From contig CALFBF010000024.1 in the NCBI GenBank assembly GCA_937949965.1, positions 1 through 40,817 of the forward strand: 40,817 nucleotides of DNA, given 5' to 3'. This DNA is from an uncultured Roseibacillus sp. GTDB lineage: Bacteria; Verrucomicrobiota; Verrucomicrobiia; Verrucomicrobiales; Akkermansiaceae. Below, one piece after another: positions 167 to 34,279 of the stretch. Positions within the stretch are counted from its first letter, which is position 1, and each line of letters begins with the position of its first letter. The position numbers and the translations under genes were made by a program. The notes beneath the pieces were generated by a model that searched no databases, was not told the DNA's origin, and was given only the letters and a program-made list of their open reading frames with translations.

Positions 167-805
167 TTAGCGACGCTCGGGAAGTTCGAGTGCGCCAATC
201 TCGGTCATCACTCGATCCGCAATCGCTTGGTAAGTTTCGCGCCCCTTACCCTTCAGTTCTTTATCGCTGAACTCAATCGGTTCTCCGACCACTAAAGTCA
301 CTTGCCGCCTTTTCCAGAAAGAACCTCCCCGAGGAAGGGCCTCATGTGCGCCAAAGAGGCGACACGGTAGCACTGGCACTTTGGACTTGGAGACAATTAA
401 TCCCACTCCAGCCTTAGCTTCTAACAGCTTCCCGTCCCAAGAGCGTTCTCCCTCGGGAAACATGATCACTCGTTCGCCAGACTTGAGGAGTTTAATCACA
501 TTTTTAAGACTACTCATATCTGGATTATCCTGATCTATTGGAATCGAATTCCAGCGCGGATAGAGCCAAGCGCAGAATCCTTTGAAGAGCGTTTTACGAG
601 CTAAATAGTAGACCCCGTTGTCGTGTGCGATCCCGACTAAGGGAGGATCAAGAAAGCTAACGTGATTGCAGACCACCAGGGCACCGCTCTCTTCAATCAA
701 ACGATCCTTACCCACGACTTCGTAGTTAAAAGAAGCCTTCGCCACTCCCCGGAACCAGCTCCAGCCAGCCCAGTAGACCCAATTCATGTTTTGCAATAAT
801 TTCAT
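167..805 (-). CDS. plsC: 1-acyl-sn-glycerol-3-phosphate acyltransferase (PlsC family)
   Basis: This is a lysophosphatidate acyltransferase-type enzyme that would acylate the sn-2 position in phospholipid synthesis at the inner membrane. The family signature NHVSFLDP (HX4D catalytic motif) and the acceptor-binding motif FPEGERS are both clear. At about 212 residues it has normal length for a compact PlsC. I chose the ATG at 805 because it overlaps the cmk stop as ATGA, which suggests translational coupling; a TTG three codons upstream (814) is the alternative. It is the last gene of an aroA-cmk-plsC operon. Substrate specificity cannot be read from sequence, so another acyl-phosphate or lipid acceptor is possible. 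Confidence 0.88.
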   Translation of the reverse strand: MKLLQNMNWVYWAGWSWFRGVAKASFNYEVVGKDRLIEESGALVVCNHVSFLDPPLVGIAHDNGVYYLARKTLFKGFCAWLYPRWNSIPIDQDNPDMSSLKNVIKLLKSGERVIMFPEGERSWDGKLLEAKAGVGLIVSKSKVPVLPCRLFGAHEALPRGGSFWKRRQVTLVVGEPIEFSDKELKGKGRETYQAIADRVMTEIGALELPERR

Positions 806-1452
806 GCCTGCCAACCTAGTTTTATTAATTCCTCTTTGACCTGAGCGACCACATCTTCGATCGCAAGCGTCGAGCTGTCCACGATCACGGCTCCTTCGGC
901 CACACGTAGCGGAGAAGTCTTGCGTTCAGAATCTCGTCGATCGCGTTCTTCCACCGCATCATCCGCGCCTTCGGCAGCTCGGCGCTGCCGTCTGACTTCT
1001 TCACTCGCAGTCACGAAAACCTTAAAAGGAGTATCTGGAAAAACAACGGTCCCGATGTCACGCCCCTCCATAACCAAAGGTCCTAAAGTGAGAAAATCGC
1101 GTTGCTTACTCACTAACAGGGCACGCACCTCGGGAATCGCCGCAATGATGGAGACGGCGGCATTGATGGCATCACTCTTCAGCTCGGACATGCTCGGCTC
1201 TGACGCATCTACCGTCATCACAGTTTGTCCATCACGCACCTGACAACCCCATGAGACTTGTGGTAAGAGAGCGACGACTACGTTGGTATCTTCAGGATCC
1301 AGCCCACGTCGTAACACCTCCCAAGTAACGGCACGATACATCGCCCCGGAGTTCACCATTGTGAGTTGCCAATCCTGTGCGAGGCGGCGCGCGACAGTGC
1401 TCTTGCCGGAAGCAGCCGGCCCGTCAATTGCAATTGCTGGATGCTGGCTCAT
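802..1452 (-). CDS. cmk: Cytidylate kinase
   Basis: This enzyme phosphorylates CMP and dCMP with ATP in pyrimidine nucleotide salvage. The N-terminal P-loop GPAASGKST follows IAID, as is typical of Cmk. The family segments VNSGAMYRAVTW and VMEGRDIGTVVFP, and the region RRQRRAAEG, are all present. Its 216 residues are slightly shorter than the E. coli enzyme and complete. The ATG at 1452 overlaps the aroA TGA in an ATGA tetranucleotide, and its own TGA overlaps the plsC ATG in the same way, so three genes are stop-start coupled. Identification is secure. Confidence 0.95.
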   Translation of the reverse strand: MSQHPAIAIDGPAASGKSTVARRLAQDWQLTMVNSGAMYRAVTWEVLRRGLDPEDTNVVVALLPQVSWGCQVRDGQTVMTVDASEPSMSELKSDAINAAVSIIAAIPEVRALLVSKQRDFLTLGPLVMEGRDIGTVVFPDTPFKVFVTASEEVRRQRRAAEGADDAVEERDRRDSERKTSPLRVAEGAVIVDSSTLAIEDVVAQVKEELIKLGWQA

Positions 1453-2768
1453 AGAGTGACTTCTCCTCCCTGACTTAAAGTATCTAATGCTTCGGTAAAA
1501 CCGGGGTAAGAAGTCGCGATACAGGCGGACCCAGGAATGATCATCTCCCCTTCACTAAGGAAGAGACCCGCAATGGCAAAGGCCATCGCGATACGATGAT
1601 CGCCGTAGCTCTCAATCTCTGCTCCACGCAGCTTAGCGCCACCTTGAATCTCCATTCCGTCCGGAAACTCTTCTACTTCGACGCCAATTTTTCTTAGATT
1701 CTCCACCACTGCGGAGATGCGATCGGTTTCCTTTACTCGAAGTTCTTCCGCATTGCGAATCACAGTCTTACCTTCAGCCAAGGCTCCCGCGATCGCCAAA
1801 ATGGGAACTTCATCAATGAGGTTTGGAACCTCTTCTTCCAAAATCGTGGTTCCTTTTAATCCTCTTCCTTCCACTAAAAGGTTGCCGATGGGTTCACCTC
1901 CTTGCTCATCTAACAATTCTTCGGTAATGTGAGCACCCATGCGTAGTAGCACTTTCATGAGAGCGGTCCGAGTCGGGTTCAACCCCACCTTCTGGACGCG
2001 CAAGGCACTTCCCTGATCGGCAGCGGCAGCTACTAACCAAAAGGCGGCACTGGAGAAATCACCTGGCACTTGCAGACTGGTAGCCTGTGGAGTTTGCCCT
2101 CCAGTCACCGAAATTACATTGCCTTCTACGCGGCAGTTGATGCCGAAGTCCGCAAACATGCGCTCCGTATGGTCACGAGTTGTTGCGGGCTGAGTGACCG
2201 TCGTTTCCCCCTTTGCGAAAAGGCCAGCTAACAGAATCGAACTTTTCACTTGGGCACTCGCGACGGGCATCTCATAACGAATGGCCTGGAGGTCACCACC
2301 ACTGATTCGCAAGGGAGCGCAACCAGCCTTTTCGCCCTCGCTAACGAACCTAGCACCCATCGACTCCAGAGGAACGGTAACCCTTCCCATTGGTCGTGAT
2401 TGCAAAGAATCATCACCCACTAAGCGTGACTCGAAATCTTGTGCCGCGAGAACTCCCGCAAGCAGACGCATCCCCGTGCCCGAGTTCCCACAGTCCAAAT
2501 CACCTGTGGGAGGAGAGAGCTTCATCGCGGTTCCGGTGATTTTCATCTCCACTGGCCCAGACGGTCCACTACGCTGAACTTCGATCGACACCCCTAGCTG
2601 TTCCATGGCCTTCAGAGTGCATAGGCAATCCTCGCTGGGTAAAAATCCGCTCACCTCGGTCACTCCCTGAGCTAAGCCGGCTAAGATAGCTGCTCGATGA
2701 GAACAACTCTTGTCACCTGGCACCTCAATTACGGTTCCCAGTTTTTGCCTCGTGCGCACCTTCAACAT
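1449..2768 (-). CDS. aroA: 3-phosphoshikimate 1-carboxyvinyltransferase (EPSP synthase)
   Basis: AroA transfers enolpyruvyl from PEP to shikimate-3-phosphate, the sixth step of the shikimate pathway, in the cytoplasm. Diagnostic segments are VPGDKSCSHRA, GNSGTGMRLLAG, the acidic LIDEVPILAIAG, ELRVKETDRI and YGDHRIAMA. The glycine in NSGTGMR is the residue whose change to alanine gives glyphosate tolerance in other enzymes; here it is unchanged. Two starts are plausible: ATG 2768 (439 residues, AAGGTG about nine bases upstream) and GTG 2780 (443 residues, AAGGG close by). I prefer the ATG. It heads the aroA-cmk-plsC operon, and bases 2769-2917 form the divergent promoter region shared with the oxidoreductase gene. 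Confidence 0.95.
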   Translation of the reverse strand: MLKVRTRQKLGTVIEVPGDKSCSHRAAILAGLAQGVTEVSGFLPSEDCLCTLKAMEQLGVSIEVQRSGPSGPVEMKITGTAMKLSPPTGDLDCGNSGTGMRLLAGVLAAQDFESRLVGDDSLQSRPMGRVTVPLESMGARFVSEGEKAGCAPLRISGGDLQAIRYEMPVASAQVKSSILLAGLFAKGETTVTQPATTRDHTERMFADFGINCRVEGNVISVTGGQTPQATSLQVPGDFSSAAFWLVAAAADQGSALRVQKVGLNPTRTALMKVLLRMGAHITEELLDEQGGEPIGNLLVEGRGLKGTTILEEEVPNLIDEVPILAIAGALAEGKTVIRNAEELRVKETDRISAVVENLRKIGVEVEEFPDGMEIQGGAKLRGAEIESYGDHRIAMAFAIAGLFLSEGEMIIPGSACIATSYPGFTEALDTLSQGGEVTL

Positions 2769-6753: not shown

Positions 6754-6760
6754 GAGGTGA
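6754..6760 (+). promoter_or_regulatory. Shine-Dalgarno site deciding the tamB start
   Basis: GAGGTGA matches the anti-SD well and its GAGG core lies five bases before ATG 6763. This favours that ATG over the GTG at 6757, which falls inside the site. It is one of few convincing ribosome sites in the window. Bases 6597-6753 hold no other element I can support. Confidence 0.6.
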
Positions 6761-6762
6761 TA

Positions 6763-9700
6763 ATGAGGGTCTTGCCTGACGCCCCCCCAACCGAGGAAGA
6801 AGAGAATACTCCCCCCCAGAAAAAGAAGGGATGTCGGGGATGTTTGGCTCTCTTGGGTATTTGTGGAGTCATTCTGTTGGCGTTGCTATTAGGTGGATTG
6901 GCTTGGTTGAATGGTCCGGGGTTCCGCTATCTTGCGCAGAAATACGGTCCTGATTTTCTAGCAGAACAGGGATTTACAGCTGAGTTCGAACTCTCGGGCA
7001 CGCTGCTGAAGGGACCTCACATTGATTCCATTCACCTCACCAGCGAGACTTCTCCCCTCAAGACTCTCAAAGCGACCAATCTGCAACTTCGTTATCATCC
7101 ACTGGCACTTAAGGAACTGAAAATTGATTCTCTAACAGCGGATTCACTGACAGTTGACCTAGACCTCAGCCAGTCTTCGCCAAAACCAGAAGACGAGGAA
7201 AAAAAGAAGTCAGACGAAACTCTCCGCGAAGTCCTCGCCAAGTTCCGGCCTGCGGCGACCCATCCCGAGATTGCCATTAGTGATCTCAATCTCCACGTTC
7301 ACAAAGGAGAGCAAAATTTCTATCTGATTCAAAATGGAGCGCTCAAACATAGTGCTAGGTCTGATACCTTTGAGCTCAACACAGGCACCGTTACCGACTT
7401 CGAAAACGAGACCTTCCAGCCGCCGGTTGCTCATATTCAGTGGGGCGATGACGAATTCACGATCACGCAACTTCCGCTCGCGCGTGAGTTCTCGGTGCCT
7501 GATCTCATTTTTGAAGTGGAACCTCTTTTCATCGAGGGGACGATCTTGGCTTACGGTAGCACCGTTGACATTACTACCGATCTCAAGTCAGTGGTGACCG
7601 CTGAACTCGGTCCAGAAGCGCTCGACTTGCACCGCTTTCTCGAACTCGCTCCTGCCACTCAAGAGGTAACAGCTCACTTAAGTCAACTTCATCTAACAGC
7701 CTCTCAACTCGACCAGGAATTTTCCAAATGGGCTTTTGAACTTTCGCTGACTCTCGATCAGCTGACTTCTCGACAACGGGACCTTCCTCCCACGCGCTTA
7801 AACTTTCTGAAAGAAGAACTCGAACTCGATACTCGCTTAAGCTTCGAGCTCCCAGAGAGTTCGCAAGAGATTACCCTCATCACCGACTTCGCCCCTGAGA
7901 CGGCTCAAGACCCAACCACAGCATGGAAGAACAGCTCTTCTCAACTGACCGCAGAGCTCCTTTCGCTTTCCGCATTCTTCACTGGAATCACTCCTACCCT
8001 CAATCTACCTGTTCCTCCCGACGGATGGCCAGAAGGACGAGCACTACTGCTCGCTACTATTAACTTGGTAGAAGGCGAACCCGCAGCTTCACAAGTTTCT
8101 CTCTCCTTCAACGGACTCGATTGGGCAGAAGCACATCTTGAGAAAGGAGAAATCGTCGTCGACTACCTCGATGCGGACTCGGACATTGCTGCAAGTCTCA
8201 CTATTGAGCAAAGCGCAACGGCCACCCTCTCCTCCAAAGCGAGCTTTCATCCTAAAAGCCAAGCTTACCAAGCCGACTTTGTGGTGAAGGACTTTGAGGC
8301 TGATGCGCTACAGCCATTTATCCGGCTCTCGGTGGGAGACCTCCCTCTCGCGGGTAAACTCTCGCTTAATTGGGAAGGTCACGGTTCCTTACCTGATAGA
8401 GAAAGCCATTACGGAGACCTCTCCTTGAGTCAGACACGCCTCACTCTACAAGATCAAGAACCGATTGAGATCAGCCTCCAGGCGAGCTATCGAGGACTCT
8501 CTCAAATTCAGCTCTCACAACTACAGGTTGAACAAGGAGACCAAGCCTTCACTGCGGAAGCCTCGTGGAATGGACAGCAAATCGAAATCCCTTCCCTCTC
8601 TCTCATCAAGGCCGAGCGACAGCTAGCAACAGGGAAGCTCTCACTCCCCTTCACCCTAGAGACCGATCCGAAGAATTACTTTACGGTCACTGACAACTGG
8701 AGCGTGACCTTAGATGCAGAGGAGCTAGATATCCCTGAAACTGCTCAACTTTTCTCCATCACGCTCCCAGAAGGCCTGCAAGGGCAGCTTTCCACCAAAA
8801 TCGATATTGCAGGAAGCCCAGCAGAACCTTCGCTCGCTGGTCGCGTGAACTTAGACCGATTTGCCCTCGAAAAACTGACCCAACTTCCCACTACTGATGT
8901 AGCCTTGGCTTGGAACACCACAGGGAAGACGTTGGCTCTTAACGGAACTGTGCAGCCAGATGGCCGTAACGCCATTATCGTCACCGGAAGCACTGCCTTC
9001 GAACCTCAGAAGTGGGCAACCGAGCCTAACAGCATTATGGATGAGTCTTTCGACTTACGAATCGATGCACCTAATCTTCGGTTAGAGCCCTTTGCTGATC
9101 TTTCTCCTGTCGTGAAACGCTTGGAAGGAAACATCGTTGCTCAAGTGCAAGCCAACGGCACCTTTCGAACGCCTAATCTAACAGGAACGATAAATCTTGA
9201 TCTTCCCAAGGCCCGTTTCGACATCGATCGGCTCCGAAAAGTGCGACAAACCAAATTACAGGCTACCTTCGCAGATAATAAAATTCAGATTACCCCTTTT
9301 AGCACCTCTATTGATGGTGGACTCTTCGACCTCTCAGGGACCGTCGACATCGCCGACACAAGTAACCCCGCCTTCGACCTTCGCCTAGACGTTGAAAGAG
9401 CCCTCGTCTGGCGTGATGATAATATCAACGCTCGCACTGACGCTGTAATCTTCCTGAAAGGCACGCTCGAACAAGCTCGCTTAAGTGGCGAACTCGGTCT
9501 TGCTGAGTCTCTCTTTTATAAAGACATCGAACTGCTCCCACTCGATGTCCCGGTATCGATTCCCAAAGCACCTAAACTTCCCTCGGTCGCCAAACGACCG
9601 ACTTCTCAGAAAAATAAGGATGGCAACGCGCTCCCGATCCCTGAACCCTATGCAAACTGGACACTGGATATCCGCGCCTACACCGCAGACCCCTTTTTGA

Positions 9701-10323
9701 TACGAGGAAACCTCACAAAAGGAGAAGTAGTCGGGGAACTCACCGCAACTGGACGCCTCGCGGATCCAAAGCTCAATGGCGAACTCGAAATCAAAGACCT
9801 CGATGCAAGTCTGCCCTTCTCTTCCCTCTCTCTTGATGGGGGCAAGGTGGTTTTCACTCCCAAAGGAGGCTTCATCCCCAAGCTCAATATTCGCGCACAA
9901 TCACGCATTCCTCCTTACGAGGTCGACATCTTCGTCGCAGGAGCAGCGACCTCGCCGGAAGTCTCTTTTGTCTCCAATCCGCCGCTACCCGAAAGCGAAG
10001 TGATCACCCTCCTCGCTACTGGGTCTACTCCGGCGGGCTTAGAAGATGGCGACGCGGCTAAAAACAAAGCCTTCCAGCTCCTTATTGAACAAATCCGAAA
10101 AGCACCACCTGGATCCCCTCTCCATCCCTTAGCCCGGTTTGCAGAACCACTCAAGGATGTCGAAATTCAAGTCGGAGGGGCAGACCCATTCACGGGCAAG
10201 CCGCGCAACTCCGTCACCCTTCCTCTCCCCCTTCCTAACAGCGAACGTTGGTTCATCACTGCCTCGGTGGATGCCGAGAGTAATACGCGCGGCCTCGTGC
10301 TCTACCTTTTGAAGTTCAACTAG
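6763..10323 (+). CDS. tamB: TamB-like translocation and assembly module / AsmA-type bridge protein
   Basis: This 1186-residue protein is anchored in the inner membrane by one N-terminal helix (about residues 26-48, GVILLALLLGGLAWL) after a Lys/Cys-rich cytoplasmic stretch. It then forms a long periplasmic beta-rich body with the alternating hydrophobic pattern of AsmA/TamB proteins. The C-terminal TamB (DUF490) domain is recognisable: GTLEQARLSGELG, then FVSNPPLPESEVITLLATG and the final amphipathic strands. TamB proteins span the periplasm and, with an Omp85 partner, assist outer-membrane protein insertion or lipid transport. The next gene is exactly such an Omp85 protein and starts immediately after the tamB stop. 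Family membership is firm; which cargo it handles is unknown. Confidence 0.88.
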   Translation: MRVLPDAPPTEEEENTPPQKKKGCRGCLALLGICGVILLALLLGGLAWLNGPGFRYLAQKYGPDFLAEQGFTAEFELSGTLLKGPHIDSIHLTSETSPLKTLKATNLQLRYHPLALKELKIDSLTADSLTVDLDLSQSSPKPEDEEKKKSDETLREVLAKFRPAATHPEIAISDLNLHVHKGEQNFYLIQNGALKHSARSDTFELNTGTVTDFENETFQPPVAHIQWGDDEFTITQLPLAREFSVPDLIFEVEPLFIEGTILAYGSTVDITTDLKSVVTAELGPEALDLHRFLELAPATQEVTAHLSQLHLTASQLDQEFSKWAFELSLTLDQLTSRQRDLPPTRLNFLKEELELDTRLSFELPESSQEITLITDFAPETAQDPTTAWKNSSSQLTAELLSLSAFFTGITPTLNLPVPPDGWPEGRALLLATINLVEGEPAASQVSLSFNGLDWAEAHLEKGEIVVDYLDADSDIAASLTIEQSATATLSSKASFHPKSQAYQADFVVKDFEADALQPFIRLSVGDLPLAGKLSLNWEGHGSLPDRESHYGDLSLSQTRLTLQDQEPIEISLQASYRGLSQIQLSQLQVEQGDQAFTAEASWNGQQIEIPSLSLIKAERQLATGKLSLPFTLETDPKNYFTVTDNWSVTLDAEELDIPETAQLFSITLPEGLQGQLSTKIDIAGSPAEPSLAGRVNLDRFALEKLTQLPTTDVALAWNTTGKTLALNGTVQPDGRNAIIVTGSTAFEPQKWATEPNSIMDESFDLRIDAPNLRLEPFADLSPVVKRLEGNIVAQVQANGTFRTPNLTGTINLDLPKARFDIDRLRKVRQTKLQATFADNKIQITPFSTSIDGGLFDLSGTVDIADTSNPAFDLRLDVERALVWRDDNINARTDAVIFLKGTLEQARLSGELGLAESLFYKDIELLPLDVPVSIPKAPKLPSVAKRPTSQKNKDGNALPIPEPYANWTLDIRAYTADPFLIRGNLTKGEVVGELTATGRLADPKLNGELEIKDLDASLPFSSLSLDGGKVVFTPKGGFIPKLNIRAQSRIPPYEVDIFVAGAATSPEVSFVSNPPLPESEVITLLATGSTPAGLEDGDAAKNKAFQLLIEQIRKAPPGSPLHPLARFAEPLKDVEIQVGGADPFTGKPRNSVTLPLPLPNSERWFITASVDAESNTRGLVLYLLKFN

Positions 10324-12363
10324 ATGCCAGCTCACCCTTACATAGAGAATCATCTCCGATCCTTCATCAGGGTTATTGGACTACTCCTATTAGGATCTTT
10401 GACTTGTTCGGCTCAAGATCAAGAAATAACAAATCGAACAACCGTTCGTATCGAGGGACTAACGGGACTCACCGAAAAAGAAGTTCTCACCCGCCTTGGA
10501 GGCCGCCTAGACTTTATCACTTCGCGTCCCCCATCGCGTTCGCGAGCAGATGATGCTGACTTTTTGGTCAGCAGTATTCTCGAAAAAGAAGGTTACTCGG
10601 ACGTCAACATCTCTTGGAAAATACCGGCCGATCGGCGATCCATTATCCTCCGAGTGAAGAGTGGTCTCCGGCTAACCCTTGACGATATTCGGATAGAAGG
10701 AGTGGCCGAAGAAGAGGGCAAGGTTATGAGGCAATTTTTCACTGGAAAAAGTCTTTTGGGAGGAAAGGCCAAAGTTCCCTACCTGGCCGACAAAACCAAT
10801 ACCGCGGCTGAAAACGCCATCGTCTACCTCAAAGCCCAAGGTTATTGGAATGCGAAAGGAGAACTTCAACCTCCGGTGATTCAGGAAGAAAACCAAAAAG
10901 TGAATCTCACCCTAAAGGTGCAACCAGGCTCTGTTCACACTATCTCCTCGCTGAAGGTCAAAGGCTCTATCCCGGAAGATTTGGCGACTCTTCCTGAACG
11001 GTTGCAACAATACCTTGGGGAAAAATCGACCGCAACTGTGCTACGGGATATCCGTGAAGGAGCAGCAGCAGAACTTCGCAACCTCGGCTACCAATTCTCG
11101 AATACTTTTCTCGAAGCCAAACACAAAGATAGCCTAACCGAACTCACCCTCACCCTCGTTCCTGGCGAACGCTACCGCTTCCGCGAACTCACTATTATCG
11201 GGGAAGAAGGTACTGATATCACGCGGGTGCAAAAGTTCTTTAATCGCTTTTCGGGCGACCCCTTTGAGGAGAAAACAGTCACTAAGTTGCGTAACGGACT
11301 CCTCTCTACTGGTGCCTTCGACAGCATTGATCGCGAGCAAAACATTGATAGCGGGGACAGAGCGATTGATGTGACCCTTCACCTCAAAGAAGGGAAACCA
11401 AAAGGAGTCTCCTACTATGCAGGAGTAGGCTCCACGGAAGGTCTCATCATTGGAGCCTCCTACTATAACCGTAATTTCCTGAATAAACTCTATAATCTGA
11501 ATATTGCGGCTGAGTACTCCCTCATCGGGGTCTTGGGCGAAATCTCGGTCACGGACCCCTATCTGCTGGGTTACGATCTCAGAGCAACTCCGAGAGCCTT
11601 CGCGCTCACCCGCACCTTTGATGAATACTTCAAATTCGAAACCGGATTCGGACTCACCATCTCTCGTAAGATTGGTTCGCGACAGACCTTACAGTTTGAC
11701 AGTCAACTGTCTTTCGCAACCGTAAGTGGAGAAGACCTGCCAACCTCTGAACTCGGGGCCACTGACTACCTCCTAACAACCGCCGGTATTAGCTGGCTCT
11801 ACGATGGGCGAGACTCCAAGACCTCTCCTGCAGATGGCTTCTTCTCCCGGATCAGCGCTGAAGTAGGTGCCGTAGCAGCGCAAGAACCTAATGCCTTTCT
11901 GCGCTTCGAAGCACAAGCTTCTTACCATCACACCCTCGATGAGAAGAACCGCCTCTCCTTCAACCTGCGAACCGGAGTCCTCGCTCCTACGAATGAAGAA
12001 GATCTCCCCGTAGATCTTCGTTTTTTCATCGGAGGGGCTGACTCGGTGCGCTCCTTTCCCTTCCGAGAACTGGGACCGAACGTGGATGGGGTCTCTCGAG
12101 GTGGGCAATCTTTCTGGTACGCTAACATCGAGTATATTCGCAAACTTGCAGGACCACTCTCGGGAGTCATTTTTCTCGATGCAGGTTCGTTAGACGAAGA
12201 AGCGACTTCCTTTCCTTCCTTTGATCCAAGAGTCGCCTTGGGAGTGGGTTTGCGGCTAGACCTTCCCATTGGTCCGGTTCGCTTCGAATACGGACAGGCG
12301 CTCAACCCCGCCTCGGAAGACCCTAGTGGGGCCTTCCACTTCTCGATCGGAGCCTCTTTCTAA
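10324..12363 (+). CDS. tamA: Omp85-family outer-membrane protein (TamA/BamA-like) with POTRA domains
   Basis: The 679-residue protein has a signal peptide (IRVIGLLLLGSLTCSAQ, cleavage near residue 30). Several POTRA-like modules follow (for example VRIEGLTGLTEKEVLTRLGG, LTLDDIRIEGVAEEEGKVMRQ and YRFRELTIIGEEG). The C-terminal half is a 16-strand-type barrel, ending GAFHFSIGASF with the terminal Phe typical of BAM substrates. The barrel contains DGRDSKTSPADGFF and RFFIGGADSVRSFPF, the latter corresponding to the conserved VRGF/lid-lock region. Its ATG directly abuts the tamB TAG (TAGATG), so the pair is coupled. I prefer TamA over BamA because of the tamB neighbour; an essential BamA elsewhere would be needed to settle this. 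Confidence 0.87.
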   Translation: MPAHPYIENHLRSFIRVIGLLLLGSLTCSAQDQEITNRTTVRIEGLTGLTEKEVLTRLGGRLDFITSRPPSRSRADDADFLVSSILEKEGYSDVNISWKIPADRRSIILRVKSGLRLTLDDIRIEGVAEEEGKVMRQFFTGKSLLGGKAKVPYLADKTNTAAENAIVYLKAQGYWNAKGELQPPVIQEENQKVNLTLKVQPGSVHTISSLKVKGSIPEDLATLPERLQQYLGEKSTATVLRDIREGAAAELRNLGYQFSNTFLEAKHKDSLTELTLTLVPGERYRFRELTIIGEEGTDITRVQKFFNRFSGDPFEEKTVTKLRNGLLSTGAFDSIDREQNIDSGDRAIDVTLHLKEGKPKGVSYYAGVGSTEGLIIGASYYNRNFLNKLYNLNIAAEYSLIGVLGEISVTDPYLLGYDLRATPRAFALTRTFDEYFKFETGFGLTISRKIGSRQTLQFDSQLSFATVSGEDLPTSELGATDYLLTTAGISWLYDGRDSKTSPADGFFSRISAEVGAVAAQEPNAFLRFEAQASYHHTLDEKNRLSFNLRTGVLAPTNEEDLPVDLRFFIGGADSVRSFPFRELGPNVDGVSRGGQSFWYANIEYIRKLAGPLSGVIFLDAGSLDEEATSFPSFDPRVALGVGLRLDLPIGPVRFEYGQALNPASEDPSGAFHFSIGASF

Positions 12364-12369
12364 CAGCCC

Positions 12370-13491
12370 TTAACGAATGAGTTGTGCAAGATACCAAGTC
12401 CAGATCTGCCAACCACCGAAAGCCCAAGTCAATCCGGCGAGCGCTAGGAAAGGTCCATAAGGAAGCGGTTTCCCAAAACCTACTCGGAGAAGAAGAGCAG
12501 CAAGGAGAGCGTAAAGAGAGGAAGCAAAGAGAGAAAAGATCACCGCCGGCCAACCGAGAAAGGCTCCGATCATTGCCAAAAGCGGCGGGTCGCCGGAACC
12601 CATTGCCTCACGAGGTCTAACGACCTCAGATGCTTTTCCAGAGAGAGAACTGATCTCCTCAATCATGAAAGTTTGATCCCCGATCTCGGCCCGATCACCA
12701 TACATCACGAGGTTCTCGCCGGGGATCTCTTTGCCATCTACGAGGAAAGCGCTTCCTTGCATGAGAAGCTTATCCGTCTTGCGATAAAACATGTCTCCCC
12801 ACTCATAATCCTCCCCATCTAACACCAGACAAAGTTGACCCAGTGGGTCCTCGTCCTCCGGTTCGCGTAACTCCCATGCGGCTTCCTTTTCGAAAGAAAA
12901 TTTTTGCTTACCAAAAGCCAACTTACCGCCCCAAACGACAAGCTGTAAGACGGCATAACCAGCCGCAAAACCTAAGAGCGCTTCTTGCCACCCTTGGGGC
13001 CAGAGCTGGGAGCGTTTCGCAAGGGTCACGAGTTCGGGGAACCAAATCGCCCCCACCACAGCGAAGGCGGCGCCCCACCAAGTCATCAAGACGGGGATGA
13101 TGTAATGCTCGGCATCGATGAAAGAGATACTCACTAACAGGGTCAGCAAAATCATGAGAAGGAAGGCCTCCCCGGGCTGTCCTTTGGTGCCATACATCCA
13201 CCACGCAACCGCCCAAAGCACAGTGGTGAGAACTTCCACCAGAACGTAACGAACGGGAATCTTCATCTTGCACTCAGCGCACCGTCCTCGCTGCCAAAGC
13301 CAAGTCACGATCGGTAGATTGCGATACCAAGGAATATCCTTCTTGCAGCCTGGGCAGAAGGAACGCTTGGGCTCATTGACTGACATCGAGAGCGGGACTC
13401 GATAAATAACCACATTCAAAAAGGAGCCTACACAAGATCCTACAAAGAGGACGACAAACCACCAAAACGGGTGCTCCCAACCAATAATCAT
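12370..13491 (-). CDS. pilD: Prepilin peptidase (A24 family) with a large inserted soluble domain
   Basis: This polytopic aspartic protease cleaves, and often N-methylates, type IV prepilins and type II secretion pseudopilins. The N-terminal domain has [15 protein letters not shown] and the zinc-type pairs CPGC (46-49) and CAEC (71-74). The first catalytic Asp is D126 in [11 protein letters not shown]; the second is D301 in [17 protein letters not shown]. Between them, about residues 195-295 form a non-membrane insert rich in Asp, Glu and Gly that usual PilD proteins lack. The family's GDxK lysine is replaced by proline. It ends six bases from the tamA stop in convergent orientation. No pil or gsp genes are nearby. 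Confidence 0.88.
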
Positions 13492-13596
13492 GCCGTGAGT
13501 CTAACCGAGATCGTTCCGCAAACCCTAGCCCCAACTCTGTCCGCTCGGATTGCCATTGCAGCGCTCCTCAAGCCGTTCCATATTCATCATTATTCC

Positions 13597-15273
13597 ATGA
13601 ATTCTCCTTCTTCTAATCTCTTTCGGGCGGCCTTCATTGCTGATTCTCTCTCACTCGGATCGCACTGGATTTACAATCAGGACAAAATCGCACGCCTTTA
13701 CCCTGACGGGGTGACCAGTCTCGACAAGCCACATTCGAAATATCACCCCGAGCGAAAGAAAGGACAGTTTACCCACTTCGGAGACCAGATGGTGATTCTC
13801 GCTAAAGCAGTGGTTGCTTCTCCGCAATGGTCGGTAGGAGTCTTTCAATCTCTCTGGCAGGGTGAGATGAGAACCTTTAATGGCTACCGTGATGGTGCCA
13901 CGACCACAACGCTAGAAAATCTTCTTGCCGGAAAAGAAGAGCCCGCTTCGGACTCCGACGATCTCGCCGGGGCTTCCCGATTCGTCCCAGTGTTCTTTCT
14001 GCGAGACGCATCTCTGGAAGACACCGTGAAAGCGGCTCGCGAACAAACCGCTCTCACCCATGGGGCTGGCACGGTCATTGACGCTGCTGAATTCTTCGTG
14101 CGCGCTATCGACGCTCTCAACCAAGGACTCGCCCTCCCTGCGGCATTTGCACAAGCAGCGAGCGCTTCTTACTCTTCCCTCGCGGCCCAAGATTTCCTCC
14201 AACAAGCAGAAGGCGCATTAAATCACGAGAATCATCTCCAAGTCGGTGCCGACTTTGGTCTCACCTGCCATCTCAAGGAGGCCTTCCCCCTCACTCTCTA
14301 CTATGCTCTTCGTTGGTATCAAGCCGGTGGCGATCTCTCGGAACAAGGATTCCTAACAGCCCTCTCGGACAATGCCTTGGCAGGAGGCGACAATGCCGCT
14401 CGTGCCATTCCCCTGGCAGCACTGTTAGCAGCAGCAGGATGTGTGATCCCGACCGCCCTTTGGGACGAACTCGATGCTTCCGAACACCTCTCCGCGCTCG
14501 AAAAATTACTCATCACGAGCCGAATTCGTTCTGAGAAAATCACCTTCACGGGAGCTAATGGAGACTCCTTGGATGCTCGTTTGGAGCTGCCCTCTAACCA
14601 GCCACGCGGCTATGCCCTCTTCGCCCACTGCTTCACTTGTGGAAAGGCTTCGCGTGCGGCAACGGCGATTAGTCGCGCGCTAGCCGAGCAAGGGATCGCG
14701 ACGCTGCGGTTTGACTTCACGGGCTTAGGAACTTCCGATGGAGATTTTGCGAATACTTCCTTCATCTCTAATGTACAGGACTTAGTCGCAGCCGCCGATC
14801 ATTTGCGTGAACACTTTGCCGCTCCCCAACTGATTATCGGTCACTCTCTGGGTGGAGCAGCCGTCCTTGCCGCTGCAGGCGAAATCGCGGAGACCTCTCA
14901 CGTGGCCACTATCGGAGCCCCCTACGATCCGGGACACGTGACTCACCTCTTTGCGGATGATGTCCCCAAAATTCTCGCTGACGGGAAGGCTCAAGTAACT
15001 CTCGCGGGACGACCCTTCGAAATCGGAGAACGTTTCTTAAGCGATCTCACCGGCCACAATCAAAAAGAACGGATTGCGAAGCTCGGCAGAAAACTGCTCA
15101 TCATGCACTCCCCCACCGACACCATCGTCCCGTTAGAGAACGCAGGTCAGATCTACTCTGCCGCTCATCACCCCAAGTCCTTCCTTTCCCTCGATGAAGC
15201 AGACCATCTTCTAACAGATGCTTCTCAGGCGCGTTATGCGGCGGAGCTGATCTCCACTTGGGTATCTCTATAA
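13597..15273 (+). CDS. Fusion: ADP-ribosylglycohydrolase-like domain plus alpha/beta hydrolase
   Basis: The frame is open from 13471, but I use ATG 13597 because protein similarity begins there and a longer form would overlap the divergent pilD start. Residues about 5-310 look like a divergent ADP-ribosylglycohydrolase fold: [30 protein letters not shown] and [19 protein letters not shown]. In the last, GGDNAAR stands where canonical enzymes have GGDxDT metal ligands. Residues about 313-558 are an alpha/beta hydrolase of the type usually fused to Osm[27 protein letters not shown], nucleophile S417 in GHSLGG, D508 in SPTD and H537 in DEADH. No OsmC domain follows. The join near [10 protein letters not shown] is in one frame. 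Activity of the first half is uncertain because of the changed ligands. Confidence 0.8.
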
Positions 15274-21194: not shown

Positions 21195-21483
21195 AGTGAT
21201 TCCTGGAATTCCCCTCCAATATAGCCCCTCTAACAGACTGCTCAATCCGGAAAGAAGTAACTGGGAGTCGAATCCTCAAGGAACAGGCCTCTAGCATATT
21301 CGTTTTCCGAGATGCCAAAAGAAGTGTGTCAACTTCGTAAATGGGTCACTGGAGGCACCCTTAAGGTTATCGAGGAACATCTTTTGAAATGAGACTATCT
21401 GAGGCGATCTTAAGAAAGAAACTACACACTCTCTCCAATAAGGATTCGACAGGAGAACGCATTCACGCAAGCTAGCGCTCTGA

Positions 21484-25562: not shown

Positions 25563-25913
25563 ATGCCTTTGCTCCGCAAACAGAAAAAAGAATCGACCAT
25601 CGTAGCCTCTGAACTCTCGGCCCTTGCCGAGCAGGAGCGTGCGGTTGCGGAGCAGATTGCCAAAATGGAGGAGATGATCTCATCTGCTCCAGACCGGATT
25701 CGGCGTGAATATGAGGAAAGTCGCACCCTCATGCCCCCTCCCGATGATTGGGAAGACCGACAACGGGCCAAGCGCTTCAACGCTCACCTCTCCAAAGGAG
25801 AAATCAGAAATGAGCACCGTTATCAGGCTCGCTCTACCCTCCTGCTCGTGCTCCTTCTTTTAGCAATTACTTCTCTTTTGATGTGGATCACCTCTTTCGT
25901 AAAAGATCTCTAA
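25563..25913 (+). CDS. Small coiled-coil protein with C-terminal transmembrane helix
   Basis: This 116-residue hypothetical protein has a basic N-terminus (MPLLRKQKKES) and a coiled-coil stretch (ELSALAEQERAVAEQIAKMEEM). A DDWEDRQRAKRF region comes next, and a C-terminal transmembrane helix (LLLVLLLLAITSLLMWI) near residues 93-110. The layout repeats that of the preceding gene. Its TAA stop lies inside a TCTAACAG motif copy. No function can be assigned. Confidence 0.7.
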   Translation: MPLLRKQKKESTIVASELSALAEQERAVAEQIAKMEEMISSAPDRIRREYEESRTLMPPPDDWEDRQRAKRFNAHLSKGEIRNEHRYQARSTLLLVLLLLAITSLLMWITSFVKDL

Positions 25914-26012
25914 CAGATTCTCGAAGAGTAAACTCCTACTCAGGATCAACAATCTCTTCGTTAACGCAAAGAAAGTCTTTTGCTCGCTCAGGCATCAGGT
26001 CACTGTCGGGGC

Positions 26013-26495: not shown

Positions 26496-27197
26496 GTGAC
26501 CTCCGCCATCATCGTTGCTTCGGGTTCCTCACGCCGGATGGGCTTCGACAAGCTCATGGCTCCGGTAGCGGGAAAATCCGTCCTCGAACACTCTCTAACA
26601 GCCTTTGCGGCCTGCCCAGAAATCGCGGAAATCATTCTCGTCACTGACCTAAAACGCTTTCGATCTCTCGACTTATTAGGATTGGAAGAAAAAGTGATTC
26701 GCGTTGACGGCGGAACCGAACGCCAGCACTCGGTTGCGAATGGTCTCGCAGCGCTCTCACCCGATTGTCGTCTCGTGGCCATCCATGATGGTGCTCGCCC
26801 CCTCATCACTACAACGGCCATTTCTCTCGCTCTCGATGCCGCCGCAGTACATGGAGCAGCAACGCTAGCACGTCCCATCACCGAAACTCTCAAACGAGCT
26901 GACTGCGACGACTTCGTGAAGGGCTCCGCCGCTAGCGTAGCACGCGAGCACCTCTGGGCGATGGAAACTCCACAATGCTTTCGAATGCGCCTACTGGAAT
27001 CCGCCTACAAGCAAATCGCCGAGGATGAAATCACGGTCACCGATGAAGTTTCTGCGCTGCAGCACCTCGGTCACGCGGTAAAACTCGTTCCCAATCCAGC
27101 TCCCAACCCTAAGGTGACCTACCCCAGTGATCTCACCCAAATTGAACAAATTCTCGTGCAATCATCTAACAACGATTCCTCTCCCGATACCGTTTAA
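26496..27197 (+). CDS. ispD: 2-C-methyl-D-erythritol 4-phosphate cytidylyltransferase
   Basis: IspD couples CTP to methylerythritol phosphate in the MEP isoprenoid pathway. Motifs are SAIIVASGSSRRMGFDK (nucleotide-binding loop), VDGGTERQHSVANGL, VAIHDGARPL, METPQCFRMRLLESAYK and VTDEVSAL...VPNPAPNPKVTYPSDL. The loop reads FDKLMAP, where many IspD proteins have PKQ. The start is GTG 26496. At 233 residues it is full length, with a short polar tail. ispF, a common neighbour, is absent. No terminator separates it clearly from convergent sucB (27198-27282). Confidence 0.93.
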   Translation: MTSAIIVASGSSRRMGFDKLMAPVAGKSVLEHSLTAFAACPEIAEIILVTDLKRFRSLDLLGLEEKVIRVDGGTERQHSVANGLAALSPDCRLVAIHDGARPLITTTAISLALDAAAVHGAATLARPITETLKRADCDDFVKGSAASVAREHLWAMETPQCFRMRLLESAYKQIAEDEITVTDEVSALQHLGHAVKLVPNPAPNPKVTYPSDLTQIEQILVQSSNNDSSPDTV

Positions 27198-28743: not shown

Positions 28744-31554
28744 TTAAACTTCGAATGCTTCCTCCACTAGCATCGCCTGCTCCCTCTTGTGCATAGCCTT
28801 CGAGCCCGCTGCGGGACTGGAGGCACGGCTTCTTCCTGAGTAACGGATACGACTGTCGAATGTGTCCTCCAAGCGCGGCCCGACGAAGGTCCAAGCACCC
28901 ATGTTGAGAGGTTCTTCCTGACACCAAATCCACTTCGTGTTGTTGGTATAAGGCTTGGTCGCTGCCAAAATGGATTCCTCATCATAAGGATAGACCTGCT
29001 CGACTCGCACAATAGCGGCATTATTGATTCCGTGTTCTTTCCGGTAATCAACGAGATCATAGTAAACCTTACCAGAGCAGAAAATCACGCGTTCCACTTC
29101 GGATGGTTTTTGTTCCATCTCGGCATCGCCAATCACTTCTTGGAAGGAGGTCTCTCCGGACAGCTCGTCTAAGGTCGAAACCGCTTCGGGCTTAGTAAGC
29201 AGACTTTTGGGCGTCATTAGGATGAGAGGCTTGCGGAAGCTACGGAGCTTTTGACGACGTAGGGCATGGAAATACTGTGCCGGAGTGGTGAAGTTCCCCA
29301 CGATCATATTCTTCTCCGCGCAGAGCTGGAGGAAACGCTCCATGCGCGCGCTCGAGTGTTCGGGGCCCATGCCCTCATAACCATGAGGCAAGAGCATCAC
29401 AAGATCGGTCGGGGTTTGCCACTTCGACTCTGCGGAGGCGATGAACTGATCGATGATCACTTGCGCTCCATTCCCGAAGTCACCAAACTGAGCCTCCCAC
29501 ATGATCAACATGTTAGAACAGCCGAGCGAATATCCGTAGTCGAAGCCCAACACAGCGGCCTCGGAGAGGAGACTGTTATAGACGCAAAACTTGGCCTGCT
29601 CTTCCCCGAGGTTTTTCAAGGGAGTGTAACGCTCACGAGTATTGTGATCGTAGAAAACAGCGTGCCGTTGGCTAAAGGTTCCGCGTCGGCAATCCTGTCC
29701 CGACAACCTTACGGGGTAACCTTCTAACAAAAGAGAGCCCCATGCTAAAGACTCAGCCAAAGCCCAGTCTACTCCTTTTCCTTCCGCAATCGCTTGTGCA
29801 CGACGAGGGACGAAGCGCTTCTTCAAAGTGGGATGAAGATTAAAGTCGGCGGGAATATTCGTCAGGACATCACCCACGCGAGCGAGAACGTCTTTGGAAA
29901 CTCCAGAAATAACGGTGTCGTGCTTATAGGCTTCCTGCTCCACCGCAGTGGACCCACTGAAGACAGTGCGTGCGCCCTCTTCTTCGAGACGACGCATCTC
30001 TTCGTAACCTTCTTCGAGACGATCCCAAATCTTCTGATGGAGTTCATCGGCACGGGCTGGGGGCACCGCTCCCGAGGTGGCCAGTTCATCACGATACAAC
30101 TGCCCAGCGGTCTTACGATCTCCGAGTTTGCGATAGATGTGGGGCTGGGTGAAGGCCGCTTGGTCGGTTTCATTATGGCCTTGGCGGCGATAACAATACA
30201 TGTCGATCACAATGTCACGGCCCCAGCGTTGACGGAATTCGAGCGCGAACTGCGCCGCCCACCAGAGTTCTTCTGGTTGTTCCCCATTCACATGGAGAAT
30301 GGGAGCCTCGATCATCTTCGCCACATCAGTCGCATAGCTCGACGAACGAGCATCGGCAGGCATGGTGGTGAAGCCGATTTGATTATTAATAATGAGATGG
30401 ATCGTTCCTCCGGTGCGGTAACCTGGTAGCTGAGAAAGATTGAGAACCTCTGCCACTGAACCCTGCCCAGCGAAGGCGGCATCTCCGTGTAGTAAGAGGG
30501 GAAGCACCTGCTTGCGATCTGTCTGCGCACCGTCATCACCGATGAGACGCTGACGGGCACGCGCCTTTCCTTCCACCACTGCATTGACGGCCTCGAGGTG
30601 GCTGGGGTTGGCGGCTAAGTTGACACGCACTCTGCCATCCGTGACTTCGCGAACGCTCTCGTATCCGAGGTGATACTTCACGTCGCCATCGCCCGCGACA
30701 AGATCCGGGACGTAGTTCGGAGTGAACTCATAAAGGAGGGTGCGCACCTTTTTGCGGAGAAAGTTTGCGAGAACATTAAGGCGTCCGCGGTGGGCCATTC
30801 CCATCTCAATTTCCTTGACCTCATGGGAAGGACAAAGTTGCAAAATACGGTTTAGGAGAACCATAACTCCTTCTCCACCCTCGAGAGAAAACCGTTTTTC
30901 TCCGAGAAACCTTTTCCCGACAAATTGCTCGAAAATTTCAGCTTCAAAGAGCCAGCGTAGAGCTTGTGACTGTTGCTCATCTGTCATGCGAGTGCGCTCA
31001 TTGCGGTGCTCAATGCGTTCCCGAATCCAGTTCCGCACCTCCGTATTATGAATGTGCATGAACTCGAATCCGATGGCACCGGAGTATGTCTCTTGCAATG
31101 CACCCACCATTTCTCGCAAAGTCATCTCCTCACCCTTGCGGAAGAATTGAGTGGTCGCCTTGCGGTCGAGATCAGACTCGCTAATACCAAAGCGACTCAG
31201 TTCCAAACGAGGATTGGCCGGAGCCTCTGCTTCTAGAGGATTAATGTGAGCTTGGGTGTGGCCGAGAGTCCGGTAATTATAAATGAGACTAACGACCCGA
31301 CCGAGGAAGTTGAGATTGTGATCACCGGCTAGGTCCGCCCCAACTGTCCCAGCCCCTGAGGAGGTAGCGACCTTTGCAGTGCTACGAGTACTAACCCCGT
31401 CTTGAGGTTGTTCTTCCGCTTGGACAACACCGAGCTCGAACCCTTCAAAAAAGGCAGCCCAAGTCGCGTCTACGGAGCGAGGATTGGCAAGCCAACGCTC
31501 ATAATTTTCATCTAACAAATTAGCGTTCAAACGGGCCGAAACTGCAGAGCTCAT
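28744..31554 (-). CDS. sucA: 2-oxoglutarate dehydrogenase E1 component
   Basis: This thiamine-diphosphate enzyme decarboxylates 2-oxoglutarate and passes succinyl to the E2 lipoyl arm. Its 936 residues match the family. Recognisable parts are the N-terminal E2-interaction segment (ENYERWLANPRSVDATWAAFF), MGMAHRGRLNVLANF, the ThDP motif region HGDAAFAGQGSVAEVLNLS with HLIINNQIGFTT, YRRQGHNETDQAAFTQP and the C-terminal LPHGYEGMGPEHSSARMERFLQ. Bases 31555-31763 are its leader and promoter region, containing a hairpin but no clear Shine-Dalgarno before the ATG. Confidence 0.96.
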   Translation of the reverse strand: MSSAVSARLNANLLDENYERWLANPRSVDATWAAFFEGFELGVVQAEEQPQDGVSTRSTAKVATSSGAGTVGADLAGDHNLNFLGRVVSLIYNYRTLGHTQAHINPLEAEAPANPRLELSRFGISESDLDRKATTQFFRKGEEMTLREMVGALQETYSGAIGFEFMHIHNTEVRNWIRERIEHRNERTRMTDEQQSQALRWLFEAEIFEQFVGKRFLGEKRFSLEGGEGVMVLLNRILQLCPSHEVKEIEMGMAHRGRLNVLANFLRKKVRTLLYEFTPNYVPDLVAGDGDVKYHLGYESVREVTDGRVRVNLAANPSHLEAVNAVVEGKARARQRLIGDDGAQTDRKQVLPLLLHGDAAFAGQGSVAEVLNLSQLPGYRTGGTIHLIINNQIGFTTMPADARSSSYATDVAKMIEAPILHVNGEQPEELWWAAQFALEFRQRWGRDIVIDMYCYRRQGHNETDQAAFTQPHIYRKLGDRKTAGQLYRDELATSGAVPPARADELHQKIWDRLEEGYEEMRRLEEEGARTVFSGSTAVEQEAYKHDTVISGVSKDVLARVGDVLTNIPADFNLHPTLKKRFVPRRAQAIAEGKGVDWALAESLAWGSLLLEGYPVRLSGQDCRRGTFSQRHAVFYDHNTRERYTPLKNLGEEQAKFCVYNSLLSEAAVLGFDYGYSLGCSNMLIMWEAQFGDFGNGAQVIIDQFIASAESKWQTPTDLVMLLPHGYEGMGPEHSSARMERFLQLCAEKNMIVGNFTTPAQYFHALRRQKLRSFRKPLILMTPKSLLTKPEAVSTLDELSGETSFQEVIGDAEMEQKPSEVERVIFCSGKVYYDLVDYRKEHGINNAAIVRVEQVYPYDEESILAATKPYTNNTKWIWCQEEPLNMGAWTFVGPRLEDTFDSRIRYSGRSRASSPAAGSKAMHKREQAMLVEEAFEV

Positions 31555-31578
31555 ATATGGGTGAAAAAAGGATAGCTC

Positions 31579-31604: not shown

Positions 31605-31763
31605 CGCGTTAAGAGGTAGATGCTAAAGATTGTTTAGTCAATCACCCTCCCCGACTTCTCACCGTGATTTCATCAATCCTCAGTATGCAGCGTCGTCATA
31701 GTTCCCCGTCTGAATGATGATCGACACTCATTCTAGAGCTCGAACCCATTCTTGCGGGGATAA

Positions 31764-32057: not shown

Positions 32058-32156
32058 TCCCTTTTCCTTGGCTAAAGGTTCATTTTTCCGCAAGAAGATT
32101 TCGAAAAAACGCGTCCTTGCGGGAATTTTATACAATTCTGTTCCGTCTTAAGATTC

Positions 32157-32807: not shown

Positions 32808-32834
32808 GCTTACTGACAATCCAACCTTATCGGG

Positions 32835-32867
32835 CCTTCGCTTAGTTCTTAAGCGAAGGTTTTTTTC
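32835..32867 (+). terminator. Rho-independent terminator after msrA
   Basis: A 10-bp perfect stem, CCTTCGCTTA (32835-32844) with TAAGCGAAGG (32850-32859), has a GTTCT loop and is followed by seven T residues. It sits 28 bases after the msrA stop. Confidence 0.92.
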
Positions 32868-32878
32868 TTATCAGACCG

Positions 32879-34279
32879 CTAGAATTCGACCGTCTTGCCC
32901 AGCTCTCCGACTTCGACTTCACCGTCATGAATTTCACGAAGAGCATCGCAGAGCGCATCTGAGCGAGAAGGCTCTCCATGCACTAACCACGTCTTGGCCT
33001 TAAGTCCAGTGGTAGCTTGGAAGTAATCTAACAATTCAGAGTGGTCGGCATGGCCTGAAAAAGAATCCACCCGATCAATGTGCGCCTTGACCTGATACTC
33101 GTCTCCAAAGATCTTCACCTTGTCCCAACCTTCACGCAGCTTCCAGCCAAGGGTCTGCTCCGCACAGTAGCCGACGAAAAAGACAGTGTTGTTAGGATTG
33201 CTGATGCCGTTCTTGAGGTGATGGAGAATCCGTCCCGCCTCACACATCCCGGAAGCCGAGATGATGATACATTGATCATCACGTTCATTGAGAGCCTTGG
33301 ACTTATCAACCGAACGGATGAGGGTGAGTCCATTGAAGCCAAAGGGATCACGTTTGTCGTGTAGAAATTCGTAGACCTCATCATTGAAACACTCGGGATG
33401 GAGCCGGAAGATTTCGGTCGCATTGGTGGCCAATGGGCTATCCACATAAACGGGAACCTTGGGAATCTTTTGCTCTTCGAAGAGTTGGTGAAGAACGTAG
33501 AGAATCTGCTGTGTCCGCTCCACCGCAAAACATGGGATAATGACCTTACCACCTCGCTTCAAAGCGGTGCGCAGCACTTCGGCCACCTCTTCGTCGGCAC
33601 CCGTTCCCAGTTCGTGCTCGCGACCACCGTAAGTACTCTCCATGAGCATGAAGTCGACATCCGTCGCGGGGACCGGGTCACGGAGAATATCGTTATCCCC
33701 CCGTCCCACATCTCCAGAGAAGAGAAAACGCTTCGTCTTGCCATCCTCCTCGTCCTCGACTTCTAACAAGATCTGAGCACTGCCCAAAATGTGTCCCGCA
33801 TCGAGGAAAGTGAGCTTAACCCCATTGGCAATCACCATCGGACGGTTGTAGCCAAGGTTCACAAACTGGCGGAGACATTTCTCAGCATCGATCTCGCTGT
33901 AGAGCGGTTCGATGAGTGGGAGATTCTTGCGTTTACGATGCTTGTTCAGCCACTTGGCATCACTGGTCTGAATCCGCGCGGAATCGGGAAGCATCACCGC
34001 GCACAAATCACGGGTCGCAAAAGTGGCAAAGATATTCCCCTCAAACCCTTTCTTGGAAAGATTGGGTAAGTTCCCCGCATGATCGATATGTGCGTGCGAA
34101 AGAACAACCGAGTCAATACTCGCGGGATCAAAGTGAGGAAAACAGCAGTTCACCTCATGAGCATCCTTTCTCCGTCCTTGATATAGCCCACAATCTAACA
34201 AGATTCGCTGCCCATTCACCTCTAACAAATGCTGAGAGCCCGTCGTTGTCCCAGCCGCACCACAAAAAGTTAACTTCAT
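32879..34279 (-). CDS. Metallo-beta-lactamase/beta-CASP RNA-processing nuclease
   Basis: This 466-residue protein resembles the bacterial Ysh1/CPSF-like MBL-fold beta-CASP hydrolases. The metal motif SHAHIDHAGNLP gives H62, H64, D66 and H67. Further ligands are in FLDAGHILGSAQ and FSGDVGRGDN. The beta-CASP part has KVIIPCFAVERTQQILY and IIISASGMCEAGRILHHL, and the final motifs are VDSFSGHADHSELLDY and LVHGEPSRSDAL. It likely cleaves RNA in the cytoplasm as an endonuclease or exonuclease. I start at ATG 34279 (MKLTFCGAAG), the family-like start; the frame is open to 34372. Confidence 0.9.
   Translation of the reverse strand: MKLTFCGAAGTTTGSQHLLEVNGQRILLDCGLYQGRRKDAHEVNCCFPHFDPASIDSVVLSHAHIDHAGNLPNLSKKGFEGNIFATFATRDLCAVMLPDSARIQTSDAKWLNKHRKRKNLPLIEPLYSEIDAEKCLRQFVNLGYNRPMVIANGVKLTFLDAGHILGSAQILLEVEDEEDGKTKRFLFSGDVGRGDNDILRDPVPATDVDFMLMESTYGGREHELGTGADEEVAEVLRTALKRGGKVIIPCFAVERTQQILYVLHQLFEEQKIPKVPVYVDSPLATNATEIFRLHPECFNDEVYEFLHDKRDPFGFNGLTLIRSVDKSKALNERDDQCIIISASGMCEAGRILHHLKNGISNPNNTVFFVGYCAEQTLGWKLREGWDKVKIFGDEYQVKAHIDRVDSFSGHADHSELLDYFQATTGLKAKTWLVHGEPSRSDALCDALREIHDGEVEVGELGKTVEF

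Follow-up and report, generated by a model that had tools for sequence, protein, structure and literature searches.

The stretch of DNA analysed here, referred to as the window, comprises 40,817 nucleotides of contig CALFBF010000024.1 from the draft genome of an uncultured Roseibacillus sp. (GCA_937949965.1; Akkermansiaceae, Verrucomicrobiota), and our subject is a short asymmetric DNA word within it, the heptamer TCTAACA, which recurs inside genes, across gene ends and between genes. An earlier report (the sequence-only reading) had counted 18 plus-strand copies against three of the complement TGTTAGA, and an exact scan agrees; the positions that it listed were also right, save for two that were off by one (27165 rather than 27166, and 34386 rather than 34385), while of its counts for the core CTAACA, 29 against 8, the second is exact and the first should be 30. 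Two copies had been said to form stop codons, and this holds: the copy at 12359 overlaps the TAA of tamA (10324-12363), and that at 25909 the TAA of a 116-residue open reading frame (ORF; 25563-25913). The copies lie as follows:

420..426, plus strand: antisense in the gene at 167-814
1909..1915, plus strand: antisense in the EPSP synthase gene at 1449-2780
7131..7137, plus strand: sense in the tamB-like gene at 6757-10323
7692..7698, plus strand: sense in the same tamB-like gene
9177..9183, plus strand: sense in the same tamB-like gene
12359..12365, plus strand: gives the TAA stop of the gene at 10324-12363 (tamA in the naming of the sequence-only reading)
12818..12824, plus strand: antisense in the prepilin peptidase gene at 12370-13491
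15210..15216, plus strand: sense in the gene at 13471-15273
21229..21235, plus strand: outside called genes
25909..25915, plus strand: gives the TAA stop of the ORF at 25563-25913
26594..26600, plus strand: sense in the gene at 26496-27197
27165..27171, plus strand: sense in the same gene
29511..29517, minus strand: sense in the 2-oxoglutarate dehydrogenase E1 gene at 28744-31554
29723..29729, plus strand: antisense in the same E1 gene
31511..31517, plus strand: antisense in the same E1 gene
33027..33033, plus strand: antisense in the gene at 32879-34372
33762..33768, plus strand: antisense in the same gene
34194..34200, plus strand: antisense in the same gene
34221..34227, plus strand: antisense in the same gene
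34386..34392, minus strand: outside called genes
34520..34526, minus strand: outside called genes

An order-2 Markov model predicts 2.3 copies for both strands of the window (1.69 on the plus and 0.70 on the minus strand), so that the observed number is an excess of about 9-fold. The excess, which had been proposed for genome-wide testing, is borne out in the window's own genome (G000, a draft of 2.73 Mb in 166 contigs): TCTAACA occurs there 1,150 times (596 forward and 554 reverse), 7.1-fold over the order-2 expectation and once every 2.4 kb, compared to 359 occurrences (187 and 172) of the reversed word. In a sample of 339,024 bases from G000, made up of 19 stretches after two (L010 and L018) that consist entirely of N had been left out, TCTAACA ranks first by z-score among all 7-mers (185 observed, 20.0 expected), and CTAACA first among all 6-mers (329 observed, 67.6 expected). 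The sequence logo of these copies gives a footprint of about 9 bp, roughly HTCTAACAR, with A or G after the core, few G at position -1 and little further out, and the flank preference does not differ between the 112 antisense, 48 sense and 25 intergenic or edge copies. Single-base variants of the core occur at or close to the expected frequency, which holds far less for variants of the first T. The word is about equally dense within and between genes, with no clear trend in this sample with position in the gene (deciles hold 11-20 copies each) and none with codon typicality (0.51-0.61 copies per kb across quartiles). Two long called genes, at L008 13896-20000 and L017 9657-13190, carry 9 and 7 copies, the most in the sample; in the window, the ORF at 13471-15273 encodes an ADP-ribosylglycohydrolase domain together with an alpha/beta hydrolase domain.

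Codon-pair use, the explanation that the sequence-only reading had itself set against its proposal, was tested with genes called by a simple ORF method and is rejected. Protein-preserving shuffles of synonymous codons in G000 yield means of 10.1, 1.3, 5.6 and 1.5 copies in the four usable frames, where 105, 27, 21 and 7 are observed, and the DNA between called genes holds 20 copies against 4.9 expected. At synonymous third positions, the base that completes the word is favoured in all four reading contexts wherever the other six already match, with odds ratios of 1.9-20; the corresponding intergenic ratios are 2.6-6.6, the five inner positions matching in 20 of 29, 33, 35, 41 and 48 cases (background 0.15-0.29). 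The effect on codon choice is most easily seen for a leucine between NTG and GA, which is encoded by TTA in 105 of 150 cases in G000, although TTA makes up 10.7% of all leucine codons there. By peptide, the word spells 79 of 174 LL[DE], 12 of 22 ML[DE] and 14 of 73 VL[DE] sites. Since enrichment extends to each of the four usable reading contexts and to the DNA between genes, codon use is no explanation, and TCTAACA is a real, genome-wide iterated word at the level of DNA.

Recurrence in related genomes, likewise suggested by the sequence-only reading, was found in part of the order. When word-rich is defined as a ratio of TCTAACA to the reversed word of at least 1.4, 14 of 58 genomes qualify, the window's own included: 13 of the 36 from the window's family and one (G050) of the 22 from other families of the order. 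Among 288 genomes drawn across the phylum, the same ratio is reached in six, all of them in the window's family. Relative to order-2 expectation, computed from samples of 60-339 kb and applied to whole-genome counts with the relatives' genome sizes rounded, enrichment is 15.6-fold in G027, 12.1 in G009, 11.2 in G015, 10.3 in G034, 9.6 in both G001 and G050, 7.8 in G021, 7.5 in G014, 7.1 in G000, 6.8 in G025, 4.3 in G003 and 3.8 in G012; it falls to 2.5-2.6 in G002, G024 and G026, 1.8 in G029, 1.0 in G011 and 0.4 in G016. (Samples consisting of N were left out: L026-L030 of G002, L046-L050 of G027 and, by the N filter, L149 and one stretch of the second G027 set.) TCTAACA is the top-ranking 7-mer in G000, G001, G025 and G034, and the second in G009, G014 and G050. 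The preference for TTA in the NTG-GA context is clear in G014 (20 of 54 cases, 5.4% overall), G024, G034 and G050 (47 of 114, 5.0% overall) and smaller in G001, G009 and G025; it is not seen in Escherichia coli, G002, G011 or G029, is not clear in the word-rich G015 (2 of 27) and G021 (1 of 48), and is reversed in G016 (1 of 46). Of 80 named loci, 16 were examined for the word over about 22 kb each, and three stand out: an Akkermansiaceae metagenome-assembled genome (MAG; L068) with 14 copies against 2.2, an uncultured Rubritalea (L071) with 10 against 3.1, and a Puniceicoccaceae MAG (L092) with 4 against 0.8. The other 13, including two Roseibacillus MAGs, have 0-2 copies. Among the named matches listed for the window's 2-oxoglutarate dehydrogenase E1 protein, the nearest is a Roseibacillus MAG (71%), followed by other Akkermansiaceae MAGs, which points to an Akkermansiaceae-like verrucomicrobium as the host.

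Several relatives favour a closely related spelling in place of, or in addition to, TCTAACA. G016 has 3,554 copies of CTAACA in its whole genome, yet 137 of TCTAACA; in 100 kb of it (stretches L221-L225), GCTAACA is found 64 times (13.4 expected) and TCTAACA once (7.9 expected). G015 favours CTATCAG (21 against 2.7 expected) and G021 favours TTAACAGG (8 against 0.2), while G034 is additionally enriched in CTAACG, with TCTAACGA at 10 against 0.8, and G050 in CTGACA (158 against 64.6); some of these calls rest on small counts, and interspersed repeats may swell the list for G016. Words around CCAGCTAGAAA and AGAAACCCCAG are frequent in L221-L225 too, perhaps as an interspersed repeat. In G002, a 98 kb sample (L236-L240) has overlapping words built around CAAAACTGAGGCG and TGATTCCAAAACTG that turn up about 16-19 times, where an interspersed repeat is probable. 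An alignment of one gene, sucA, from 30 genomes offers a view of individual sites: none of the three G000 copies is shared with the three genomes of the same genus, and they lie where the base is synonymous or the residue variable. Two are found again at the corresponding site in those other genera whose protein permits it. TCTAACA is a lineage-specific iterated word whose favoured spelling shifts by one base between related genomes.

From the 18:3 ratio in the window, the sequence-only reading had proposed a replication-polarised motif, naming KOPS-like, Chi-like and uptake-type signals as examples. The FtsK-orienting polar sequences (KOPS) are read by an FtsK-type translocase and show a strand polarity well beyond base composition that switches at ori and dif. 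The ratio is in itself weak evidence: the probability of at least 18 of 21 copies on one strand is 0.097 given the expected 1.69:0.70, and 0.03-0.05 given the background of 64.5-67% in the G000 sample, and TCTAACA is only ninth in strand skew among the 7-mers of the window. We compared the word with its anagrams after dividing the sample into blocks of at most 10 kb, each oriented by its GC skew, and leaving out those shorter than 4 kb (181 of 185 copies kept). The C-rich strand of G000 carries TCTAACA 122:59 (67%) and its 209 anagrams 4007:2210 (64.5%; p=0.44), with a median of 67% over the 47 frequent anagrams, so that a replication polarity of the word's own is not supported. In 300 kb of E. 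coli, oriented by replichore, KOPS stand at 28:2 against 70% for their anagrams, and Chi at 53:25 (68%) against 60%; the test is thus able to pick up a signal of the KOPS type, whereas one of the Chi type would hardly register. Where drafts are uneven, the reversed word is equally so (CTAACA 1832:1087 and control 759:448 in G024; 1039:1529 and 630:991 in G012). The single contig of G021 (C1, 6.41 Mb) has 182 places with TCTAACAG, of which 100, covering 0-3.59 Mb, were listed. These are divided 40 plus to 60 minus, compared to 47:35 in the remainder; the bias lies in 0-1.5 Mb (18:37, p=0.014), is gone in 1.5-3.59 Mb (22:23), and runs opposite to the GC skew, the plus strand being C-rich in the two stretches sampled within 0-1.5 Mb. 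Density over the listed part is also uneven, with 18 places in the first 0.3 Mb, a further high at 0.9-1.2 Mb, and 2-5 per 0.3 Mb between 1.5 and 2.7 Mb. As the weak bias in G021 opposes the skew, there is no conserved polarity, and the strand bias of the word is ordinary base composition. The window illustrates a trap: in skewed DNA, a word's strand bias needs comparison with its anagrams.

The lack of polarity, the upkeep at the DNA level irrespective of orientation, the heavy use of permissive peptides and the one-base dialects are together best matched by an uptake-type word, and our preferred reading, which we hold tentatively and at somewhat less than an even chance, is that TCTAACA acts as a self-DNA signal resembling an uptake sequence. 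A receptor linked to the type IV pilus would bind the word on incoming DNA, and DNA so tagged would be taken up and recombined preferentially; this biased uptake would spread the word wherever protein sequence permits, mostly at synonymous positions. Changes in the receptor would shift the spelling and give rise to dialects, while a loss of receptor specificity would leave the copies to decay. The known uptake sequences, the DNA uptake sequence (DUS) of Neisseriaceae and the uptake signal sequence (USS) of Pasteurellaceae, have no intrinsic strand preference, and neither has TCTAACA, which is also the most, or nearly the most, over-represented oligomer in several of the genomes compared and occurs alongside competence genes. 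ComEC is found in 54 of the 58 genomes, PilT in 57 (at E 1e-60) and DprA in 54, G000 having all three; the relatives may thus be competent. Dialects are described for the DUS of Neisseriaceae in PMC3630211.

A number of findings weigh against this reading. The competence genes do not discriminate, as ComEC and PilT (14 of 14 word-rich genomes) and DprA (13 of 14) are nearly universal in word-poor relatives too. No match to ComP_DUS (PF16732), the family of the DUS receptor in Neisseria, exceeds the cut-off in the 58 genomes, where a single sub-threshold stretch, in G008, was obtained, and control genomes are likewise without a match. Permissive serine-asparagine (21 of 215) and leucine-threonine (27 of 654) sites are far less filled. 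Singly mismatched forms of uptake sequences are reported to be in excess (PMC1939737), whereas the median fold over the 18 one-mismatch neighbours of CTAACA is 1.00 in G000, matching expectation, and 1.3 in G050, in a test whose power is limited by the high neighbour background of so short a word. Close inverted pairs, as in DUS terminators, are few: for YCTAACAR, 1 of 38 plus/minus pairs and 0 of 35 pairs in the other arrangement lie less than 20 bp apart, and we have rejected inverted-pair terminators for this reason. Finally, TCTAACA is shorter than a DUS (12) or a USS (9), by the lengths given in PMC3630211.

After the uptake-type reading, we place a site for another DNA protein, such as a nucleoid organiser, an orphan methyltransferase or a mismatch-repair mark, which would make TCTAACA a non-palindromic counterpart of the highly iterated palindrome HIP1 that tracks its cognate enzyme. 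We regard this as unlikely, if still a serious contender. The strict core, with no excess of near matches in G000, and the absence of polarity beyond composition would suit such a site, as would the patchy presence and related replacement spellings, which resemble HIP1 and its alternates as described in PMC4390886; HIP words, however, are palindromic, and TCTAACA is not its own reverse complement. In the same article (PMC4390886), Chi, uptake sequences and HIP1 are treated as classes of iterated words.

A Chi-like recombination hotspot is doubtful and ranks only slightly lower. It would require that an AddAB helicase-nuclease, while resecting broken ends, reads YTGTTAGA on a single strand, ceases degradation and loads RecA; the word's high frequency would then be maintained by selection for repair. 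G000 has genes for such an enzyme, with an AddA-like frame (2.6e-58) adjoining an AddB-like one (3.5e-21) on contig C161, both below curated cut-offs and both with the nuclease domain PDDEXK_1 (PF12705), a domain found in 56 of the 58 genomes and in many of them within two long adjoining reading frames. The word is over-represented, its length of 7-8 falls in the Chi range, genes and intergenic DNA carry it at similar density, and the overall density of one per 2.4 kb is of the order of the one per 5 kb given for E. coli Chi in PMC8022716, from which the Chi criteria were also drawn. TGTTAGA lies on the G-rich strand in 67% of cases, near the 68% of E. coli Chi on the leading strand; the anagrams of TCTAACA reach the same value, and those of Chi 60%. 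Other observations point away from Chi. RecC was found in two of the 58 genomes, G016 and G050 (in G050 over the cut-off), which, unlike most other relatives, have only weak matches to the AddA/AddB/RecB nuclease domain, and both keep the CTAACA core; AddAB-type matches, on the other hand, are present in genomes with the word at 1.0-fold (G011), 1.8-fold (G029) and 2.5-fold (G002). The persistence of the core with RecC in place of an AddAB-type pair, and the chance-level frequency of TCTAACA in G011, make it less likely that the word is a Chi read by AddB, a judgement based on two RecC genomes. Members of the genus also differ in how abundant the word is, and members of the family in how it is spelled, and enrichment in word-rich genomes is 2-5 times that of E. 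coli Chi (3.1-fold by the same measure). RecC as the cause of richness was rejected, as of the two RecC genomes one is rich and the other poor in TCTAACA.

A KOPS-like signal is very improbable, since the 18:3 ratio in the window and the early bias in G021 that would speak for it are met by the anagram comparison in G000, the clear KOPS excess in the E. coli control, the opposition between bias and GC skew in G021 and the equal skew of the reversed word in uneven drafts. Equally remote is an artefact of composition or codon pairs: words with CTA/TAG behave irregularly in coding sequence, and Markov z-scores of 6-11 are attained by ordinary words of these genomes, but the shuffles, the intergenic excess and the lack of a TTA effect in E. 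coli and in three word-poor genomes (G002, G011 and G029) contradict it. An attC-like pairing, suggested by a likeness of TCTAACA/GTTAGR to the core sites of integron attC, was set aside, since inverted partners of the word are rare at short range in our spacing table.

The short words known to shape bacterial genomes as a whole are of only a few kinds, namely Chi, uptake sequences, KOPS and HIP1, and a strong lineage-specific word in Verrucomicrobiota, with dozens of comparable genomes, makes the origin and spread of such words testable in another phylum. We give only slightly less than an even chance to the broader proposition that members of the Akkermansia family, together with one or more genomes from elsewhere in the order, use an uptake-type self-DNA word with evolving dialects (TCTAACAR, GCTAACAA, TTAACAGG and CTATCAG), or else that the word represents a further class of iterated signal, neither Chi, uptake sequence nor HIP. 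Were the uptake-type reading true, a lineage would be added beside Neisseriaceae and Pasteurellaceae, and it would imply selective genetic exchange among Akkermansia relatives; were the word a Chi, it would reveal the recombination code of a little-studied group. A literature search, with subscription papers and preprints outside its scope, returned no paper on TCTAACA and none on over-represented Chi sites in Verrucomicrobia; uptake sequences combined with Verrucomicrobia gave only a review on gene transfer in metagenomes, a wider search had no paper on Verrucomicrobia among those listed, and none of the listed titles dealt with transformation in Akkermansia.

Set beside the known systems, TCTAACA shares with KOPS that it is a short, iterated, asymmetric word, with a strand excess local to the window, but differs in that it has no polarity beyond base composition in G000. 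With Chi it has in common its length, the order of its density, a modest preference for one strand and the AddAB-like gene pair, and it departs from Chi in a core that is kept in two RecC genomes, in being at or near expectation in some AddAB-type genomes, and in an enrichment exceeding that of E. coli Chi. Like HIP1 of cyanobacteria, it is an iterated, roughly octamer-sized word of patchy occurrence that is replaced by related words in some relatives, whereas HIP1 is palindromic with methyltransferase sites inside it and TCTAACA is asymmetric. From DUS and USS it differs in its shorter length (7-9 bp), the lack of a near-match excess in G000, the scarcity of inverted pairs, its occurrence in another phylum and the lack of a ComP_DUS match over the cut-off; with both it shares that it is highly iterated, non-palindromic, spelled in related ways in relatives, and accompanied by competence genes.

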